Source: Candidatus Zhuqueibacterota bacterium
Lineage (GTDB): Bacteria; Zhuqueibacterota; Zhuqueibacteria; Thermofontimicrobiales; Sulfurfontimicrobiaceae
Direction: 5' to 3'
Assembly: GCA_016927835.1 (NCBI GenBank)
Contig: JAFGMA010000104.1
Location: 1-64,000 of the forward strand
DNA: 64,000 nt
The position numbers and the translations under genes are program-made. This document shows, in pieces, positions 18,590 to 27,974 of this stretch. The notes under the pieces were generated by a model. It saw only the letters and a program-made list of their open reading frames with translations. It was not told the DNA's origin and ran no database searches. How positions within the stretch are numbered: the first letter of the stretch is position 1; the number at the start of each line of letters is the position of its first letter.

Positions 18590-19360
18590 ATGCTCCAATC
18601 CGAGCGGCATGAACAAATCCTGCATCTTCTTGCGGCGAGTAAGTTCCTCAAGGTAAAGGACCTCGAGCAACGCTTCAACATCTCTAGATCGACTGCGATC
18701 AGAGATATTGAGGAATTGGCGAATGCCGGATTGGCAGACCGAACGTATGGCGGTATCAAGCGCGCAGATTCAGTATTACCAAAGCATTTTACCTGTGAAT
18801 TATATTCGCGCGCTTTGAACAGCGCAACCTACGATGCCAAAGAGCAAATAGCCGCCGCTGCCGTCGCCCGACTCGATCCCGGTTCAACGCTATTCGTCGA
18901 TGGCGGAACCACAACCCAACAACTCTGTCATCACCTGACCGAAATTGACTTCCATATTATCACCAATTCATTAAGTATCGCCTGCTTTTTCGCTGAAAAT
19001 TCATCCAATGAGGTGCTTTTGACCGGCGGCTTATTGCATCGGCGCGGGCGAATTATGATCGGTCCGCATGCTCAAAGTATGGTTGAATCAATTCACGCCG
19101 ATTGGTTCATTGCCAGTAGCGGCGGCATCGACGAACAAGGCTTAACCAATACCGATTTGCTGACGGTTGAAATCGAGCGCAAAATGATTGAGCAGAGCAG
19201 CCAGGTGATGATTCTGGCAGATCATACAAAATTCGGACGCAAAACACTCACATATTTTGTTAATTTTGACGCTGTAGATATTCTGATCACAAATCGGCAG
19301 CCGAGAGACTCAATTGTGGAGGCAATCGGGCAGGGGGGCACAGAATTGGTGGTTGTGTGA
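18590..19360 (+). CDS. DeoR family transcriptional regulator of the microcompartment
   Basis: A 256-residue DeoR-type repressor. The N-terminal winged helix (residues 1-60: SERHEQILHLL, VKDLEQRFNISRSTAIRDI, DRTYGGI) is followed by the sugar-phosphate sensing domain with FVDGGTTTQQL, ITNSLSIA, LLTGGLLHRRGRIMIG and ADHTKFGRK, all in the usual order. Family members usually respond to phosphorylated sugars. It is the first gene of the microcompartment locus, 124 bases ahead of the first shell gene, so it probably controls that operon and itself. No Shine-Dalgarno is visible at its ATG. Confidence 0.9.
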   Translation: MLQSERHEQILHLLAASKFLKVKDLEQRFNISRSTAIRDIEELANAGLADRTYGGIKRADSVLPKHFTCELYSRALNSATYDAKEQIAAAAVARLDPGSTLFVDGGTTTQQLCHHLTEIDFHIITNSLSIACFFAENSSNEVLLTGGLLHRRGRIMIGPHAQSMVESIHADWFIASSGGIDEQGLTNTDLLTVEIERKMIEQSSQVMILADHTKFGRKTLTYFVNFDAVDILITNRQPRDSIVEAIGQGGTELVVV

Positions 19361-19484: not shown

Positions 19485-19811
19485 ATGGAATTAGCTCGAG
19501 TAGAAGGAACGGTTGTTTCAACGGTGAAAGCCGACCGGCTGAAAGGTTATAAGCTGTTGGTTATTCACTTGTTGAAACCGGATACGACCCCCACCGGTTC
19601 CCACGTCGTAGCCGTGGATACGGTGGGCGCCGGTAATGGTGAAATCGTCATCGCAGTTCGCGGAAGCTCGGCGAGGCAAACTGCCGATCTTTCAAATGTG
19701 CCCACGGATACCAGCATTGTGGCAATCGTCGATTCAATCGAGTACCAGGGCAAAATCGTTTTCCGTAAAACACCCCTGAAAGACAAGAGCGATGAAATTA
19801 GGACGAATTGA
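19485..19811 (+). CDS. BMC vertex protein, EutN/CcmL family (first copy)
   Basis: A 108-residue pentameric shell vertex protein (BMC-P). It opens with LARVEGTVVSTVKADRLKG and has VAVDTVGAGNGEIVIAVRGSSAR, the conserved core in which the GAG(x)GE loop borders the pore, then IVAIVDSIEY. Pentamers cap the corners of the microcompartment shell. A charged ~15-residue tail follows the fold. GGAG lies nine bases before the ATG. It overlaps the next gene by 20 bases, which suggests coupled translation. Confidence 0.93.
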   Translation: MELARVEGTVVSTVKADRLKGYKLLVIHLLKPDTTPTGSHVVAVDTVGAGNGEIVIAVRGSSARQTADLSNVPTDTSIVAIVDSIEYQGKIVFRKTPLKDKSDEIRTN

Positions 19812-20067
19812 AGGTAAGGTCTGGGCAACCATAAAAGATGAAAAGCTGAAAGGCGTGAAGCTTTACATCATGCAGCCCATCGATGAATACGAGCAACCGC
19901 TTGGCGCACCCGTGATTGCCGCCGATACCATCGGAACGCGCGAGGGTGATATCGTTTATTGGGTCAGTGGTGCAGAAGGTACGTTTGTCCTGGATGCTCA
20001 CCAGATCCCTTCGGAAGCCAGCATTGTCGGTTTGGTGGATCGTCTGGATGTAGCGGATTCGCAGTAA
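19792..20067 (+). CDS. BMC vertex protein, EutN/CcmL family (second copy)
   Basis: A 91-residue BMC-P protein with KLGRIEGKVWATIKDEKLKG, VIAADTIGTREGDIVYWVSG and IVGLVDRLDV. The pore-loop Gly-Ala-Gly of the first copy is changed to GTREGD, so its pore differs. It is out of frame with, and overlaps, the first copy by 20 bases. Confidence 0.93.
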   Translation: MKLGRIEGKVWATIKDEKLKGVKLYIMQPIDEYEQPLGAPVIAADTIGTREGDIVYWVSGAEGTFVLDAHQIPSEASIVGLVDRLDVADSQ

Positions 20068-20142
20068 CCGCTTCAAATCCTGTTTCATTTTCAAAATCAT
20101 AATCCCTGAAACGTCCTCTAATAAAATGAAGAAGTGAATGTT

Positions 20143-20424
20143 ATGTATATCGGCAAAGTCGTTGGAAGCCTCGTTTCAACAATCAAACACCATGCTTATC
20201 AGGATCAGAAAATTCTGCTGGTTCGTCCCATGACGCCTGACGGTGAGTTGAAATCGGGCACAATGGTCGCTGTGGATACCGTGGATGCCGGTATCGGTGA
20301 CCATGTTCTGGTGGCTCAAGAAGGACGATCTGCAACCGAAATTCTGGGATTCAAACGGAGAATGCCGTTGAGAAGTGTCATTATAGGTGTCATTGATCGC
20401 ATTGATATGGAGTTTCAGGAGTAA
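20143..20424 (+). CDS. BMC vertex protein, EutN/CcmL family (third copy)
   Basis: A ~93-residue BMC-P protein: MYIGKVVGSLVSTIKH, MVAVDTVDAGIGDHVLVAQEG, VIGVIDRIDM. The ATG at 20143 is preferred over an in-frame GTG at 20134 because family members start with this MYIGKV-like strand. Three different vertex proteins in one locus match the PVM-type organisation. It ends four bases before the next gene. Confidence 0.93.
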   Translation: MYIGKVVGSLVSTIKHHAYQDQKILLVRPMTPDGELKSGTMVAVDTVDAGIGDHVLVAQEGRSATEILGFKRRMPLRSVIIGVIDRIDMEFQE

Positions 20425-20427
20425 TGC

Positions 20428-21159
20428 ATGGACCGAATTGAATTGGAAAAATTGGTTCGCGAAATCACCGAAAGAGTGCTGGCTGAAATTATCCGTAAGG
20501 CAGCACCCCAAATTATTCAAAAGACGTCGGTGATGACACCTGCGCCAAAGGCATCAGCGGGGCAGCCATCCGCTGCACAGCTCATTTTCGCCAGGAAAGT
20601 TCTCACCGAACGCGATATCCTGGATACCGCAGCTTCAGGGAAAACCAGCATCATCCTGAAAGGAAAGCCGATCATCACACCGCTGGCGCGGGAACGTGCA
20701 TCGGATAAAGGTATTGCGCTGGTTGCGACGGGAACCGCTCCGATTCATTCAACCATGTCGCGTCAATCGGGAGGGGGAGAGTCGCTCGCATTATTGGCGA
20801 AACGCTGCAGCCAGAGCGAGAGAAATATGGTCGTTAATGCAGTGGCATCAGCGGGATACAGCATCCAGGAAATCAAACCTGCCGGTATCACGTCGAATGC
20901 CATCGCCGAAGCAGCGCTTGATTTTTCCAAACTCATCAGCGATGGCGCTTGCTCACGCGGGATCGTCGTCGACGAAAATGTGTTTGCACTTGCCGTCCAG
21001 GCAAATAAATTTCCGAACGTTCGCGCCGCAACTTGCTGGGATGTGGCTTCGGCGGAAAAAAGCCGATCCGGCTGCGATGCCAATGTGCTCTTGCTGAATA
21101 ATCGGCTGTTGGGTTTGATGATGTTGAAACAGATCACCACAGCATGGCTCGGAAAATAG
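20428..21159 (+). CDS. BMC-associated RpiB-like protein lacking catalytic loop
   Basis: A 243-residue protein with three parts. Residues 1-30 form an amphipathic helix (LEKLVREITERVLAEIIRK) like the peptides that direct cargo into microcompartments. Residues ~50-90 have KVLTERDILDTAASG and ITPLARERASDKGIALV, a segment also seen in BMC-linked EutT-like proteins. The C-terminal ~120 residues match the ribose-5-phosphate isomerase B fold (QANKFPNVRAATCWDVASAE, DANVLLLNNRL). The isomerase phosphate and catalytic loop (CGTGIG in E. coli, GGSGNGE in mycobacteria) is replaced by DENVFAL, so isomerase activity is unlikely. RBS AGGAG is present. Confidence 0.8.
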   Translation: MDRIELEKLVREITERVLAEIIRKAAPQIIQKTSVMTPAPKASAGQPSAAQLIFARKVLTERDILDTAASGKTSIILKGKPIITPLARERASDKGIALVATGTAPIHSTMSRQSGGGESLALLAKRCSQSERNMVVNAVASAGYSIQEIKPAGITSNAIAEAALDFSKLISDGACSRGIVVDENVFALAVQANKFPNVRAATCWDVASAEKSRSGCDANVLLLNNRLLGLMMLKQITTAWLGK

Positions 21160-21329
21160 GATTTGCATGAGTGTCGAATCCACTTTGCATTGCAGCAAAT
21201 TCGAAATTTTATCAATGAAAAAAATACAGATTTAATCGAATCATCCGCGAGATCAAGTCAATGCGGCAAAGCGAAGACAGTAAAGATAACTAATAGAGCG
21301 AAAAAAGCAATTGAACCGGGATCAAATTG

Positions 21330-22646
21330 ATGTCATTGGCTGAACAAGTGAAACAATCCGGGATCGTCGGTGCTGGGGGTGCCGGATTTCCGACTCATAT
21401 CAAATTGAATGCAAAAGCCGAATGGTACCTTGCGAACGGCGCCGAGTGCGAGCCGCTGATGCACAAGGACCGCGAACTGATGCTGCATTTTGCTCCCGAA
21501 ATTATACACGGATTGAAACTCGCTGCCGAAGCAGTCGGCGCAACGAAAATGGCAATCGGCGTAAAAGCCAAAAATAAAACCGCCATTGCAGCCCTGGAAG
21601 CGGCGGCAAAAGATACGCCGGTCCAAATTGTTCAATTTGGTGACTATTATCCTGCGGGTGATGAATACGAACTCGTCTATTCAATCACTAATCGCTCGAT
21701 TCCGCCAGCCGGTATTCCGCTCGATATCGGGGTCGTTGTGAATAATGTTGAAACCCTGTACCAGATTCACCAGGCATCGAACGGTGTACCGGTTACCGAT
21801 ACCTTTTTGACCATCACCGGAATGGTTCGGCAGCCTATGACCCGGCGTGTTCCCATTGGCATGAGCGTTTCCGAATTGATCGAGCTGGCAGGGGGGAGCC
21901 TTGCCGCAGATTTCGCCGTGATGGATAGCGGATTGTTGATGGGAAAATTAATCGCCGATTTGAATCAACCGGTTACCAAGACGACCGGCGGACTCATCGT
22001 TTTGCCGGCATCGCATGAATTGATAAAACGATACAGCACCCCGGAAAAATCCATGTCCCGAATCGGCAAATCAGCATGTGACCAATGCAGTTTTTGCACC
22101 GAGCTTTGTCCGCGATATTTGCTCGGATACGATGTTCAGCCGCACAAGGTGATGCGCAGCCTGGGATTTTCGCTCACCGGAGCGCCGCTTTGGAATCGCT
22201 ATGCCCTCCTCTGCTGTGGCTGCGGCTTGTGCACGCTTTATGCCTGTCCCGAATCCCTTTTTCCGCGCGAAGCCTGCGAGAAGGGGATCGAGGATCTCCG
22301 CAATGCCGGAAATGCAAAATGGGAAGGTTCCCACAACATCAAACCGCATCCTATGCGAAATGCCCGTCGGGTTCCGCTGAAACGTTTGATGAATAAGCTC
22401 GGTATCACCCAATACGACGCCCACGCCGGCTGGATTGAGGATGAGGTTCTTCCCGGGCGCGTGGTGCTGCCGCTGCAACAGCACATCGGAAAGCCTGCGG
22501 AGCCAGTGGTTAAAATGGGAGAAGCTGTTCAAAAAGGGCAACCGATCGCACGGATGCCCGATGGTCAACTCGGGGCGACGATTCACGCCAGCATCAGCGG
22601 CAAAATCACCCAAATCGACTCCGCAATTACGATTGAAAAGGATTAA
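21330..22646 (+). CDS. pduS: PduS-like RnfC-type electron-transfer protein
   Basis: A ~438-residue protein of the PduS/RnfC type, which moves electrons from NADH or cobalamin-linked redox steps in microcompartments. The nucleotide/flavin region (GAGGAGFPTHIKL, NGAECEPLMHKDRELM) and a SLBB-like region (GMVRQPMTRRVPIGMSV) precede two Fe-S motifs, CDQCSFCTELCP and CCGCGLCTLYACP. The C-terminus is an RnfC barrel-sandwich domain (VLPLQQHIGKP, ASISGKITQID). The ATG at 21330 has no clear RBS; a TTG lies one codon earlier. No B12 enzyme is in the locus, so its likely task is recycling the NADH made by the aldehyde dehydrogenase. Confidence 0.9.
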   Translation: MSLAEQVKQSGIVGAGGAGFPTHIKLNAKAEWYLANGAECEPLMHKDRELMLHFAPEIIHGLKLAAEAVGATKMAIGVKAKNKTAIAALEAAAKDTPVQIVQFGDYYPAGDEYELVYSITNRSIPPAGIPLDIGVVVNNVETLYQIHQASNGVPVTDTFLTITGMVRQPMTRRVPIGMSVSELIELAGGSLAADFAVMDSGLLMGKLIADLNQPVTKTTGGLIVLPASHELIKRYSTPEKSMSRIGKSACDQCSFCTELCPRYLLGYDVQPHKVMRSLGFSLTGAPLWNRYALLCCGCGLCTLYACPESLFPREACEKGIEDLRNAGNAKWEGSHNIKPHPMRNARRVPLKRLMNKLGITQYDAHAGWIEDEVLPGRVVLPLQQHIGKPAEPVVKMGEAVQKGQPIARMPDGQLGATIHASISGKITQIDSAITIEKD

Positions 22647-22649
22647 GCG

Positions 22650-23201
22650 ATGAAAATGAATGCCATCGGATTGATTGAATTGAATAGCATCGCCTCCGGA
22701 TTCGAAGTCGCAGATGCCATGCTGAAAGCGGCGGAAGTTGAGCTCATTCTGGCGCGTACTATCTGTTCCGGGAAATATGTCGTAATTGTCGGCGGCGATG
22801 TGGCTACCGTGCGATCCAGCGTCGATTCCGGGCTTGGAATCTGGGAAAGCGCCATCATCGATACGATGGTGATTCCGAATGTGCACCCCTCGGTATTCCC
22901 GGCGATTGCCGGAACAAACACAGGCGATGACTCCGGTGCACTGGGCATTATCGAAGCGTTCTCTGTGGCATCGCTCATTCAAGCTGCCGATGCTGCGGTA
23001 AAAGCCGCCCGCGTGAAACTCATCGAAATCAGGCTGGCAATGGCGCTGGGAGGAAAGGCGTTTGTCACCCTGACAGGAGAGGTTGCCGCCGTCCGGGCAG
23101 CAGTCGATGCCGGTGCGCGTATCGTTGCCGATAAAGGATTGTTGGTGAATAAAGTCGTCATCGCTGCGCCGAGTCCGCAGCTCTATAAAGAATATATTTA
23201 A
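22650..23201 (+). CDS. Tandem BMC-domain shell protein (BMC-T, PduT-like)
   Basis: A 183-residue protein with two BMC domains: residues ~4-88 (AIGLIELNSIASGFEVADAM) and ~94-175 (GALGIIEAFSVASLIQAADA). Such proteins form trimers that act as pseudohexamers in the shell. The first domain has Cys in ARTICSGKYVVIVGGD; PduT uses a pore Cys to bind a 4Fe-4S cluster, and the neighbouring PduS fits that pairing, though the position should be modelled. It starts three bases after the PduS gene. Confidence 0.93.
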   Translation: MKMNAIGLIELNSIASGFEVADAMLKAAEVELILARTICSGKYVVIVGGDVATVRSSVDSGLGIWESAIIDTMVIPNVHPSVFPAIAGTNTGDDSGALGIIEAFSVASLIQAADAAVKAARVKLIEIRLAMALGGKAFVTLTGEVAAVRAAVDAGARIVADKGLLVNKVVIAAPSPQLYKEYI

Positions 23202-23225: not shown

Positions 23226-23942
23226 TTGGAACCAAGAAGTGCTGCCTGCCTGGAATGCGGTTTATGCGATATAGAATCCGGACAAGTGACTCAAGACGTT
23301 GATATCCGGTTAATCGTTGAAAAAGTGGTACGCGATGTCGTTGAGACGATGTCACCTTCGGGTAAAGCAAACCGGATGATTCCGATTGGGGTCTCCGCCA
23401 GACATTTGCATATCACGCAAGAGCACCTCGAACAGCTTTTCGGCCCGGGCTATCAGTTGACGAAGCTCAAAGACCTGAACCAGCCAGATGAATTTGCTGC
23501 AAATGAGACGGTGTCGGTACTCGGTCCCAAACGCCGAATTTTTGAAAAAGTCAGGATACTGGGTCCGGTGCGCCCGGCAACCCAGGTTGAATTGTCATTC
23601 ACCGATGGCATCTTCCTTGGACTTGATCTGCCGTATCGGATGTCCGGAAATATCAAGGGTTCCGCGCCGGTGGCGCTAATCGGGCCCAAAGGTGTGCTCA
23701 ATCTGTCCGAAGGCGGAATCCGGGCAGCCCGGCATATTCACATCAATCCCGAAGATGCGCAACGACTGGGTGTTTCGAACGGTCAGATCGTCAGCGTTAA
23801 AACTAGCGGTTCGATGAGCGTCACGTTTAATAATGTCGTCATTCGTATGAAAGCGGGTTTGAATCTGGAAATGCATCTCGATACCGATGAAGCCAATGCC
23901 GCCGGGTTGCATTGCGGCGATCTGGTTGGATTGATGGTGTAA
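23226..23942 (+). CDS. pduL: PduL-type phosphotransacylase with N-terminal Cys motif
   Basis: A 238-residue PduL, which converts acyl-CoA and phosphate to acyl-phosphate and recycles CoA inside the shell. The core has IPIGVSARHLHIT (zinc-binding His pair), LKDLNQPDEFA, RILGPVRPATQVE, RHIHINPEDAQRLG and EMHLDTDEANAA, i.e. both beta-barrel halves with the metal-binding His residues. Before the core lie an unusual Cys triplet (CLECGLC, residues 8-14) and an amphipathic helix (IRLIVEKVVRDVVETM) that is probably the encapsulation peptide. The start is TTG with GGAGAAG upstream. Confidence 0.92.
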   Translation: MEPRSAACLECGLCDIESGQVTQDVDIRLIVEKVVRDVVETMSPSGKANRMIPIGVSARHLHITQEHLEQLFGPGYQLTKLKDLNQPDEFAANETVSVLGPKRRIFEKVRILGPVRPATQVELSFTDGIFLGLDLPYRMSGNIKGSAPVALIGPKGVLNLSEGGIRAARHIHINPEDAQRLGVSNGQIVSVKTSGSMSVTFNNVVIRMKAGLNLEMHLDTDEANAAGLHCGDLVGLMV

Positions 23943-24020: not shown

Positions 24021-25442
24021 ATGGCTCAATTAGACACTGATTTGGTGAACACAATCGTCTCCCGTGTTATTGCAGAACTTGAAAAACAAAATCTGGTAAC
24101 TTCCGGAATTTCAGGAAATACCACGGGAGTTTACGAAAATATTGACGATGCAATCGCTGCCACATTTCAGGCTCAAAAGGTATGGCTCAAAACCCCGCTG
24201 GAAACCAAAGCCAGGGTGATTGCTGCCTTGCGGCAGGCGATGCATGATAACGCCGAGGAATTTGCCCGCCGTGCCCGAGAAGAAACAGGCATGGGACGGG
24301 TTGAAGATAAAATCATCAAGCATCATAATGCAGCCGATGCCACGCCCGGGCTGGAGGATTTGCCCTCAGCATCCTGGTCGGGCGATCACGGTCTGGCGGT
24401 GGAGGAATACGCGCCGTACGGCGTAGTCGCGGCAATTACGCCGTCCACTCACCCGATTCCGGTTTTGCTGAACAGCACTATCATCATGATTGCGCCGGGA
24501 AATGGCGCGGTTTTCAACGTACATCCCGCGGCAAAAAAAGTCTCGTCTTATGCCATGGAGATATTCAATCGCGCGATTCAATCCGCCGGGGGACCCCCGA
24601 ACCTGATTTCAATGGTGCGCGAGCCGACGATGGAGACCGTGCAGAAGCTGTTTCATCACCCGGATTTACCGATTATCGCGGCTACCGGCGGACCGGGTCT
24701 GGTGGCTGCGGCGTTTCAGGCGGGTAAAAAAGTGATCGCTGCAGGTCCGGGAAATCCGTCGGTTGTTGTCGAACCCAGTGCGTGCCTGAAAAGCGCTGCT
24801 GAACATATTATCACCGGCGCCAGCTTCGATAACAATATTCTCTGTATCGCCGAAAAAGAAACCTTTGCAGTCAATTCCATTTTTGATGAATTTATGACCG
24901 AGATGGAGCGCGCCGGGGCAGTGCGCCTGAATGCCCAACAAATCGAAGCCCTCTCGAACCAGGTATTCTCGAAAAATGACAGCGGTCATTGGGTGGTGAG
25001 CCGGGACTTCATCGGCAAAAATGCGAGTGTACTGGCTGCTGCTGTGGGACTGTCGATTTCGGATAATGTGCGGCTCCTATTCGGCGAAACCAATTTTGAA
25101 CATCCTTTCGTTCAGGAAGAGCAAATGATGCCTTTCATGCCGGTGGTTCGAGCTAAAACCATTGCCGAAGCCATCACGATGGCGGTGAAAGCCGAACACG
25201 GATTTCAACACACCGCCGTTATTCATTCGAATAATTTGAAGGTGATCACCGAATTTTCAAAAGCAGTTGATACCGATATTGTTGTCGTCAATGGTCCCAG
25301 CATGGCAGGAAACGGGCCCAAAGCCGGTGAAGCCTATTTTTCACATACGATTTCCAGCCCCACCGGTGAGGGGATATGCACGCCGCGCAATTTTGCACGG
25401 ATTCGCCGAATTTGTACCTATAATTCATTGAGAATTGTTTAA
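24021..25442 (+). CDS. pduP: CoA-acylating aldehyde dehydrogenase (PduP-like)
   Basis: A 473-residue CoA-dependent aldehyde dehydrogenase, which oxidises an aldehyde to acyl-CoA with NAD+. Residues 1-22 form the encapsulation helix (LVNTIVSRVIAELEKQN). The catalytic domain has ITPSTHPIPVLLN, PLIAATGGPGLV-like nucleotide-binding (PIIAATGGPGLVAAA) and the catalytic Cys in NNILCIAEKE (about residue 273). Length and motifs fit PduP/EutE. In this locus the aldehyde most likely comes from the class II aldolase; lactaldehyde is the expected substrate if the sugar is fucose or rhamnose. Confidence 0.93.
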   Translation: MAQLDTDLVNTIVSRVIAELEKQNLVTSGISGNTTGVYENIDDAIAATFQAQKVWLKTPLETKARVIAALRQAMHDNAEEFARRAREETGMGRVEDKIIKHHNAADATPGLEDLPSASWSGDHGLAVEEYAPYGVVAAITPSTHPIPVLLNSTIIMIAPGNGAVFNVHPAAKKVSSYAMEIFNRAIQSAGGPPNLISMVREPTMETVQKLFHHPDLPIIAATGGPGLVAAAFQAGKKVIAAGPGNPSVVVEPSACLKSAAEHIITGASFDNNILCIAEKETFAVNSIFDEFMTEMERAGAVRLNAQQIEALSNQVFSKNDSGHWVVSRDFIGKNASVLAAAVGLSISDNVRLLFGETNFEHPFVQEEQMMPFMPVVRAKTIAEAITMAVKAEHGFQHTAVIHSNNLKVITEFSKAVDTDIVVVNGPSMAGNGPKAGEAYFSHTISSPTGEGICTPRNFARIRRICTYNSLRIV

Positions 25443-25549
25443 TCGAAATCACTTTTTCAAAAGTTTGAAATAAAATTAAGAACGAGTAATCAGCTTAAAA
25501 AGCAAAAAACAGAATTACATAAATCACTTATTATTTGGAGGTATTAGCA

Positions 25550-25882
25550 ATGGCTAAAGAAGCATTAGGTTTGATTGAGACGCGTGGTCTGGTTGGTTCG
25601 ATTGAAGCGGCTGATGCCATGGTCAAAGCAGCACAGGTTGAATTGATCGGCAAAGTTCAGGTTGGTGGCGGATTGGTAACAGTAATGGTTCGCGGCGATG
25701 TGGGCGCAGTCAAAGCAGCCACCGATGCCGGTGCTGCCGCAGCCGAAAAAGTTGGCGAACTTGTTTCGGTTCACGTTATTCCGCGTCCGCACTCGGATGT
25801 CGAATTGATACTGCCACAGCGTCCCCAGAGCCCCGGTACAGGCACAGGCAAAGGAATAAAAAAGGACATGAGTAATGATTAA
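25550..25882 (+). CDS. Hexameric BMC shell protein (BMC-H)
   Basis: A ~110-residue single BMC-domain protein: [22 protein letters not shown]-type opening, [37 protein letters not shown], then a flexible PQSPGTGTG-rich tail. Hexamers tile the shell facets. The ATG at 25550 is chosen since GGAGG lies ten bases upstream. It is the only BMC-H gene of the locus in the window and overlaps the aldolase gene by eight bases. Confidence 0.94.
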
Positions 25883-26744
25883 AAATTTGTATTCACTAAA
25901 AAAGGACATCGTTGAAGCCGGGCGGCGCGTGTATAACCGGGGCTATGTTGCATCGAACGATGGGAATATCAGCGCCCGAATTGATGAAAAAAGGGTAGTG
26001 ATAACCCCCACAGGCGTCAGCAAAGGATTCATGTCTCCCGATGACCTCGTAGTAGTGGATTACGAAGGCGATGTCGTCGAAGGGAAGAAAAAACCTTCGT
26101 CGGAAGTCTACATGCACCTGAGAATATTCAAAGAGCGCCCCGATGTCAACGGCATTTGTCATGCACATCCGCCGGTAGCCACCGGATTCGCAGTTGCCGG
26201 CATTCCGCTTACGCAATGCATTTTGCCAGAAGTCATCATCAGCCTGGGGGGGATTCCGCTGGCTGAATACGGAACGCCGGGCACCGATGAGTTTTACCAG
26301 CCGGTGCTGAAGTACCTGAAAGATTATGATGCGTTCCTGCTGGAAAATCATGGTGCATTGACTATTGGCAAAGATGTGATGAATGCGTATCACAAAATGG
26401 AGACCCTCGAGCATTTTGCACATATCGCTTTCGTTGCCACTCAACTGGGAAACGTGAATACCCTGAAAGGCGAAAATGTACAGAAGCTCTTAGATCTGCG
26501 AAAAAACTTCGGGATTAAAAGCAATGTAACATGCGAAACGTGTGAGAGTTCGAACGCTGCTGCCTGCTCAATTGTTGCGCCGAATCAGCCGCATGCAGCC
26601 GGAAGCGCTCCGGCATCGCCGATTGGGAATAGCCCGCCGGTTGGCAGCGCGAGCAATTCTCCGCCCGTACTCCCTGAAGGCATCGATCAGGAAGCGCTGG
26701 TGAAGCAGATAACGGCAACTATTTTGAAACGTCTGAGTGGCTGA
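25875..26744 (+). CDS. Class II aldolase with C-terminal encapsulation peptide
   Basis: A 289-residue protein. The first ~215 residues are a class II aldolase of the L-fuculose-1-phosphate family: [22 protein letters not shown], a zinc-binding [12 protein letters not shown] and ENHGALTIG. Such enzymes cleave fuculose- or rhamnulose-1-phosphate to dihydroxyacetone phosphate and lactaldehyde. Then come a Cys pair (CETCESS), a Pro/Gly/Ser-rich linker and an amphipathic end helix ([17 protein letters not shown]) typical of encapsulation peptides. It is therefore the likely signature enzyme of this microcompartment. Sugar specificity is inferred from family and context. Confidence 0.92.
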
Positions 26745-26783: not shown

Positions 26784-27974
26784 GTGTATGTAATTGTTTG
26801 CAATATTGGTTCCAGCAGCTTCAAATTTCAGTTATTGGATATGGCGAGTGAAATCCAGATTGCGCGCGGATACATTGAACGCGTCGGATCTGATAATGCG
26901 ATTATCACCTATTGGCACAAAAATGAAGCGGTTCTTTCCGATGAATTGCCCATGCCGACGCATCGGGAAGCGGTTCAGCATAGCCTGGATTTTTTGACCG
27001 ATAAAGCGCACCATATTTTAGAGTCGCTCGATCAAATAGACGGTATCGGTTTCAAATGCATTCAAGCCGGCGAAAAAAATGGATCGGTGCTCTTGAGCCA
27101 GGACGTTCTCGACGCCATGGAATATTATCGCGAGCTGGCGCCGGCTCATAATCCGCCATACCTGACCGCGATTTATATGTTTCGCGATCTGTTGCCGAAA
27201 ACATCGCTTGTCGGAGTTTTTGAGCCCGGCTTCCATATCCACACACCCGATTATGCAAAAGTCTATGGTACGCCGTACGAGTGGATCGAGAAATACGGTA
27301 TCAAAAAATACGGCTACCACGGCGCGTCGCATCGGTTCGTCACCTGGCAAACGGTGAAAATTCTCGGCTTGCCCAAAGATAATCATAAGATCATCACCTG
27401 TCATCTCGGAGGTTCTTCGTCGCTTTGCGCTTTCAAAAATGGTATCTCAATTGATACCTCCATGGGATTCACGCCTCAGAGCGGTTTGATTCAGGGTACG
27501 CGCATCGGCGACATGGATCCGTATGTGTTGCCGTATATCATGGACAAAAAAGGCATTTCACTCGACGATGCGCTCAAAGAATGCTCGAAAAACAGCGGAT
27601 TGGCTGGGCTATCCGGGACTTCAGGGGATATGCGGGATATCAAAGAAAAAATCGAACAGGGTGATAAACGGGCGCTGCTGGCGCGCAATAAATTCATTTA
27701 TGATATCAAACGCTACATTGGTGAATTCCTGGTGATGCTGGAAGGGCTCGATGCGATTACGTTCACCGGAGGCATCGGGCAGCGGGATGCGGATTTGAGG
27801 AAGCAGGTGCTGTCTTCGCTTTCATTCCTCGGACTCCGGCTGGATCATGCGAAAAATGATGCGGGAGACCAGATCATCACAACAGAAGATTCTGCCATCC
27901 GGGCGCTGGTTCTTGAAACCAATGAGGAAATCGTTGTTGCTCGTGAAACCGTGAACGTGATCACCGGGAAGTGA
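26784..27974 (+). CDS. ackA: Acetate kinase family enzyme (BMC-type)
   Basis: A 396-residue acetokinase. It would make ATP from the acyl-phosphate released by PduL, forming lactate, propionate or acetate. N-terminal CNIGSSSFKFQ, HGASHRF, HLGGSSSLCAF, IDTSMGFTPQSGL, GTRIGDMDP and FTGGIGQRD are the family motifs, slightly diverged from the housekeeping type (HLGNG, TAGIGE). It starts at GTG with AAGGAG seven bases upstream. It is the last gene of the microcompartment operon. Confidence 0.92.
   Translation: MYVIVCNIGSSSFKFQLLDMASEIQIARGYIERVGSDNAIITYWHKNEAVLSDELPMPTHREAVQHSLDFLTDKAHHILESLDQIDGIGFKCIQAGEKNGSVLLSQDVLDAMEYYRELAPAHNPPYLTAIYMFRDLLPKTSLVGVFEPGFHIHTPDYAKVYGTPYEWIEKYGIKKYGYHGASHRFVTWQTVKILGLPKDNHKIITCHLGGSSSLCAFKNGISIDTSMGFTPQSGLIQGTRIGDMDPYVLPYIMDKKGISLDDALKECSKNSGLAGLSGTSGDMRDIKEKIEQGDKRALLARNKFIYDIKRYIGEFLVMLEGLDAITFTGGIGQRDADLRKQVLSSLSFLGLRLDHAKNDAGDQIITTEDSAIRALVLETNEEIVVARETVNVITGK

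Follow-up and report, generated by a model that had tools for sequence, protein, structure and literature searches.

Microcompartments of the sugar phosphate utilization (SPU) type encapsulate an RpiB (Axen 2014, PMC4207490; Sutter 2021, PMC8217296), and in SPU-like loci of Latescibacteria an RpiB-like protein is encoded beside a class II aldolase (Axen 2014, PMC4207490). Shell loci may also host dead enzymes, such as the second aldehyde dehydrogenase (AldDH) of GRM1 loci and carboxysome proteins (Axen 2014, PMC4207490). Another relevant system is PduM, a structural protein located in the core, whose first 23 residues direct cargo into the core and whose loss partly detaches the core from the shell; the two studies that report this disagree on whether PduM links core and shell directly (PMC9132943, PMC12108088). 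PduM has been described as lacking known sequence homologues beyond Pdu compartments (PMC12108088).

Here, we analyzed a window of 64,000 nucleotides from a Candidatus Zhuqueibacterota bacterium, in which a gene at 20428-21159 encodes a protein of 243 amino acids, hereafter X, that consists of a helix, a mini-module, and a degenerate RpiB domain. X occupies a slot with the third BMC-P gene on one side and pduS on the other. Its locus encodes a class II aldolase (fuculose/rhamnulose type), and PF00936 shell domains occur nowhere else in the 7.6-Mb assembly. On the forward strand throughout, this locus comprises a DeoR-family regulator (18590-19360), three BMC-P (EutN/CcmL-like) genes (19485-19811, 19792-20067, and 20134-20424), X, a PduS/RnfC-like electron-transfer protein (21327-22646), a PduT-like BMC-T (22650-23201), a PduL phosphotransacylase (23226-23942) and a CoA-acylating AldDH (24021-25442), each with an N-terminal amphipathic helix, a BMC-H (25535-25882), a class II aldolase of the fuculose/rhamnulose phosphate type (25875-26744), and an AckA-like acetate/propionate kinase (26784-27974). 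The second BMC-P was recognized because it resembles both of the others as well as its syntenic counterparts, and the kinase, named by reading its sequence, is kept in syntenic loci. The aldolase carries a helix-like C-terminal tail, the hydrophobic moment of which is not unusual. The inventory of a fucose/rhamnose (PVM-like or SPU-like) locus is complete (class II aldolase, AldDH, PduL, AckA, DeoR regulator, BMC-H, BMC-T, and BMC-P). It equals that of the Latescibacteria SPU-like locus (AldDH, PduL, PduS, RpiB-like protein, class II aldolase, and acetate kinase), for which the catalytic state of the RpiB-like protein was not discussed (Axen 2014, PMC4207490). The SPU locus, in contrast, has a DeoC aldolase in place of the class II enzyme.

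Both L-rhamnose isomerase (RhaA) and L-fucose isomerase (FucI) are encoded in the same genome. A rhamnulokinase-like gene adjoins the syntenic locus of genome G050, and a look-alike, judged by its first residues, adjoins that of G015. The DeoC family is represented in the genome by one weak match, outside the X locus. Given the aldolase, the isomerases, the rhamnulokinase-like neighbors, and the scarcity of DeoC, the pathway is most likely one in which fuculose/rhamnulose-1-phosphate is cleaved to lactaldehyde, and the aldolase, AldDH, PduL, RhaA, and FucI outline it without a ribose-5-phosphate isomerase step. Elsewhere in the genome we found two intact RpiBs, one of the canonical Cys type (contig C205) and one that carries the same LTE mini-module as X (an LTE-RpiB, contig C380). 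The Cys-type RpiB and FucI lie 14 kb apart on C205 (17989-18399 and 32173-32661).

The X gene begins with an ATG 3 bases past the stop of the third BMC-P gene, with AGGAG 6 bases upstream of the ATG. The initial annotation had assigned the protein to the RpiB fold, and profile searches bear this out: PF02502 (LacAB_rpiB) matched aa 133-242 with E=5.1e-18 and 65.8 bits (cut-off, 24.7). A chance similarity to RpiB is ruled out at an E value of 5e-18. In the profile search X fell far below every NCBIfam isomerase equivalog cut-off. The cited motifs QANKFPNVRAA, DANVLLLNNR, and DENVFAL are all found in X. A structure prediction, which the initial annotation had suggested as a check, gave a mean pLDDT of 87 when AF2 was supplied with 41 intact relatives, and Foldseek placed E. 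coli RpiB first among solved structures, followed by Trypanosoma, C. thermocellum, and other RpiBs (best E, 7.6e-9). From the single sequence the pLDDT was only 37; the model depends on the intact relatives, its input alignment is biased towards RpiB, and it supports the fold assignment, not fine detail.

More specifically, the model comprises a helix at aa 3-30 (20434-20517), a low-confidence linker, an alpha/beta mini-module at aa 51-101 (LTERDI...ITPLARE; 20578-20730), a second linker, and a Rossmann-like, RpiB-derived domain at aa 119-242 (20782-21153). The helix is amphipathic and resembles an encapsulation peptide, as had been proposed. AF2 predicted aa 1-20 as helical with pLDDT >90, and the hydrophobic moment exceeds that of 96% of background 18-mers, although shuffles of the same residues match it in 22% of cases. 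Similar helices are also present in the syntenic copies and in RpiBs of microcompartment loci, and the helix, which lies where a targeting helix would be expected, may direct X to the compartment. The mini-module, which the initial annotation missed, appears to be shared with the PduM C-terminus, TIGR02536, the EutQ N-terminus, and the LTE-RpiBs.

Encapsulated RpiBs of the SPU type share with X the combination of helix, LTE mini-module, and RpiB within a shell locus (e.g., Chloroflexi loci L122, L123, and L128), but they keep all catalytic motifs, including a DGAGIGS loop, whereas X has lost them. The loop of X reads DENVFAL (aa 182-188; 20971-20991), as the initial annotation had noted, with VICGTGLG of C. 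thermocellum RpiB aligned to VVDENVFA; Asp182 stands at the Cys site and the glycines are replaced. The initial annotation had taken the loss of both Cys and Glu, the bases of two known enzyme types, as a sign of lost activity. Both residues are indeed missing, yet their absence is not diagnostic. The alignment of RpiBs from other microcompartment loci, also suggested as a check, confirmed that the loop differs in X but revealed that its relatives carry DGAGIGS, likewise without Cys or Glu. A third, Asp-type group, to which the closest relatives of X belong, was therefore missing from the count of two. D-G-x-G-I-G-S or a close variant was present in nearly all of 80 related RpiBs, with Asp at the Cys site, and Asp182 of X corresponds to this Asp. 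The Asp-for-Cys group (mostly DGAGIGS) is large, spans many phyla, and is found both in and out of microcompartment loci with the other motifs intact (L100-L179, with L002 being the C380 protein of the same genome).

The damage reaches well beyond the loop. As a yardstick we took 41 intact homologues, among which 44 columns show conservation of 95% or more; X differs at 26 of these columns and retains 18. Changed positions include the DHGG motif, the YP of DYPD, the glycine and serine of the loop, EHN, and the C-terminal RHxxR. Indeed, the glycine-rich anion loop, DH, DYPD, (R)EHN, and RHxxR are each substituted or not encoded, RHxxR and the helix that follows it being absent altogether from the coding sequence. 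Asp182 is the sole recognizable active-site motif residue among the 18 retained columns, and others that remain (N193, K194, R199, A200, C203, R213, A218, and N219) are presumably mostly structural. Because motifs beyond the Cys/Glu loop are gone, X is, as far as its sequence can tell, very probably catalytically dead. An X that still works as an isomerase, or has gained a new activity, with Asp182 as the base would agree with the significant PF02502 score and with the retention of Asp at the presumed base position of Asp-type RpiBs. We consider it highly improbable, since the remaining substrate-binding motifs (at least 95% conserved in the 41 homologues) have disappeared and Asp182 is not universal among the long forms described below, being His in that of G001.

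Whole-genome searches uncovered X-type loci in many genomes of the phylum. A long degenerate form lies between BMC-P 3 and PduS in eight genomes, including the source (G000, G001, G015, G029, G049, G050, G056, and G057), and the open frames in these divergent genomes rule out that X is a simple pseudogene. A short form of 104-125 aa, composed of helix and module only, occupies the same slot in five genomes (G019, G043, G051, G058, and G081). Further short proteins of the same plan are encoded after the first BMC-P gene in G002, G006, G009, G063, and G072, in each case in a class II aldolase locus, and the X of G035 runs off its contig. PF02502 E values among the long forms were 5e-18 (X), 9e-13, 4e-6, 0.0015, and 0.0055; the RpiB domain is sub-threshold in some syntenic copies and absent in others, with the helix and the PduM/EutQ-type module kept. 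This decay and absence imply that the role of the slot is independent of an isomerase. Like X, the dead enzymes of GRM1 loci and carboxysomes present an enzyme fold without catalytic residues in a shell locus, but their fold is not that of RpiB, and the dead domain of X is, in addition, dispensable in syntenic copies.

In a tree of RpiB domains, the degenerate copies formed one clade (100/99) within the Asp-type RpiBs, on extreme branches that make its sister group unreliable. A PduS tree did not separate a long-first from a short-first order of the X forms. A single-protein scan of named genomes found nothing, and the alignment of degenerate copies was too divergent to serve as a scan profile. 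Degenerate copies were also sought in the 27 genomes behind the named loci and in 40 genomes from one additional phylum, to which a locus labelled Calditrichota belongs; the best-scoring hits that were read had intact motifs.

Pairwise identity among the long forms is 23-31%, compared with 46-82% for neighboring proteins, whose averages are 51-81%, and 51% for five intact LTE-RpiBs of the phylum. In G049/G056, the only close pair available for dN/dS, X gave 0.37 overall and 0.49 in its RpiB part, whereas three neighbors gave 0.05-0.13. Selection on X is relaxed, though dN/dS remains below 1, and given the value of 0.49 much of the RpiB part may be under little selection. At the same time, F186, L188, W204, D205, N224, and W240 are invariant across five long forms, and the RpiB-derived domain therefore has a constraint of its own. 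The main rival to an assembly role is a neutral relic in decay, in which the RpiB domain would be a nonfunctional leftover in the process of being lost, carried by a helix and module that do little or nothing else. The very low identity between syntenic copies, the dN/dS values relative to those of the neighbors, the PF02502 scores that sink below threshold, and the lack of the domain in five genomes would all be expected of such a relic. Nonetheless, we regard it as unlikely, because frames stay open in eight genomes at 23-31% identity, dN/dS is below 1, some positions are invariant in a family-specific manner, and genomes that lack the RpiB domain still conserve the helix and module.

Most long forms also share the remodelled loop x-E-x-x-F-x-L and a CWD motif, a conservation that could reflect a ligand sensor or allosteric element, with the altered pocket holding a sugar phosphate of the pathway or an aldehyde adduct but not turning it over. 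The loss of the phosphate-binding parts (glycine loop, DH, and RHxxR), the more hydrophobic loop, and the dispensability of the domain in syntenic loci render this quite improbable. Enzymes of the RpiB fold form dimers, and LacAB is a hetero-oligomer; in the style of LacA-LacB, X could accordingly be envisaged as joining a mixed oligomer of RpiB chains in a targeting or regulatory capacity and recruiting the intact C380 RpiB to the compartment. That protein is indeed an intact LTE-RpiB of the same genome, and X keeps both the fold and Asp182. However, the short forms offer no RpiB domain for pairing, a pentose isomerase would serve no evident purpose in the pathway, and motifs have been lost from several parts of the active site, which leaves such a pairing very doubtful.

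Comparison of the mini-module with known families revealed that the short forms match PduM C-termini down to E 1e-5 (others 2e-5), TIGR02536 (4e-9), the EutQ N-terminus (1e-6), and PF15953 PDU_like (4e-5), all of these matches being partial and below curated cut-offs. X itself reached E 0.008 and 16 bits against the PduM model, short of the curated cut-offs (TIGR04493, 50 bits; NF011957, 179 bits), and is not filed as PduM. Using hhalign against Salmonella PduM, the short-form alignment gave E 2e-5 over 27 columns (probability 76%) and the X alignment E 5e-5 over 42 columns (67%). These short, weak matches weakly suggest that the module of X is homologous to the PduM C-terminus. PduM has an N-terminal targeting helix, and X a predicted helix at its N-terminus, but the PduM module is C-terminal and preceded by another domain, whereas that of X is internal; in addition, PduM has no RpiB domain, its gene lies between those for PduL and PduN, and it is not as poorly conserved inside pdu operons as X is in its loci.

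Two plasmid-encoded proteins have related layouts. On an Ilyobacter polytropus plasmid (L271:4670-5374), a gene between those for PduL and EutN/CcmL encodes a helix, a CoaC/Dfp-like flavoprotein domain (PF02441), and an X-type module, and on an E. coli plasmid (L273:2761-3423), the protein encoded after PduL has a helix, a Rossmann-like middle, and a PduM-like tail. Both hint at a possible flavoprotein ancestry of PduM itself. The LTE/ITPAAR mini-module also occurs at the C-terminus of PduLs in at least three genomes of the phylum (L201, L204, and L206, from G031, G032, and G014).

Collectively, we propose that X is a catalytically dead relative of Asp-type RpiB that is kept as a core-assembly or core-shell linker protein, a sequence-based reading to which we assign a probability of roughly 0.58. 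It draws on the 26 of 44 changed columns, the two intact RpiBs elsewhere, a pathway without an isomerase step, and an RpiB domain that is dispensable at the slot. A PduM-like role is suggested by the match of the X module to PduM C-termini, given that PduM loss partly separates core and shell. The initial annotation had left scaffold, sensor, and repurposed enzyme side by side; the structural option is favored by the syntenic copies, in some of which the RpiB domain is decayed and in others missing, while helix and module persist. We infer that X is encapsulated, inactive, dimeric, and engaged in assembly. Its helix would dock into the enzyme core along with those of AldDH and PduL, the PduM/EutQ-type mini-module would provide a second contact, to core or shell, and the RpiB-fold domain, perhaps still a dimer, would act as a rigid multivalent spacer. 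X most likely originated from an encapsulated Asp-type RpiB, or from a short X fused with one, its chemistry being lost where the compartment had no need of it. Against an assembly role stand the short, weak PduM match (27-42 columns; E 0.008 for X), a domain order (module before large domain) and operon position unlike those of PduM, the dN/dS of 0.49 in the RpiB part of the close pair, and the conflicting PduM reports.

Tentatively, proteins built from a helix and mini-module might form a general metabolosome core-assembly class, with PduM as a member and short X as its minimal form, whose members have repeatedly carried Rossmann-type enzymes retired from catalysis, with RpiB in X and a CoaC/Dfp-like flavoprotein in the PduM slot of Ilyobacter. 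X would then be a cargo enzyme in transition to an assembly protein, and PduM would gain relatives beyond Pdu compartments. We found no report in the open-licence literature of the loss of an RpiB active site, of the short X forms, or of the shared module. Its occurrence in PduM, EutQ, RpiB, some PduLs, and short X would offer a testable handle on core-shell attachment across metabolosome types. X itself would clearly exemplify an enzyme domain that stays in an organelle without its chemistry, and it cautions against reading an isomerase step into every "RpiB-like" gene of a microcompartment locus.

Intact RpiBs with the LTE module occur without the helix outside microcompartment loci in G044, G016, and the source genome (L041, L042, and L043, the last on C380). 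Judging from names read from sequence, they adjoin a histone-deacetylase-like gene and, in G044 and G016, also an L-isoaspartate methyltransferase-like gene. RpiB-DeoC fusions of ~470 aa with intact DGAGIGS loops were seen in G008, G011, and G004 (L031, L033, and L215); in G008 (L049) and G004 (L215), microcompartment genes, a class II aldolase gene among them, are located nearby. Finally, the loci of G080, G041, G032, and G014 (L080, L082, L083, and L084) begin at pduS, with no BMC-P, X, or PduL in place, and the compartment genes of these genomes seem to be split.
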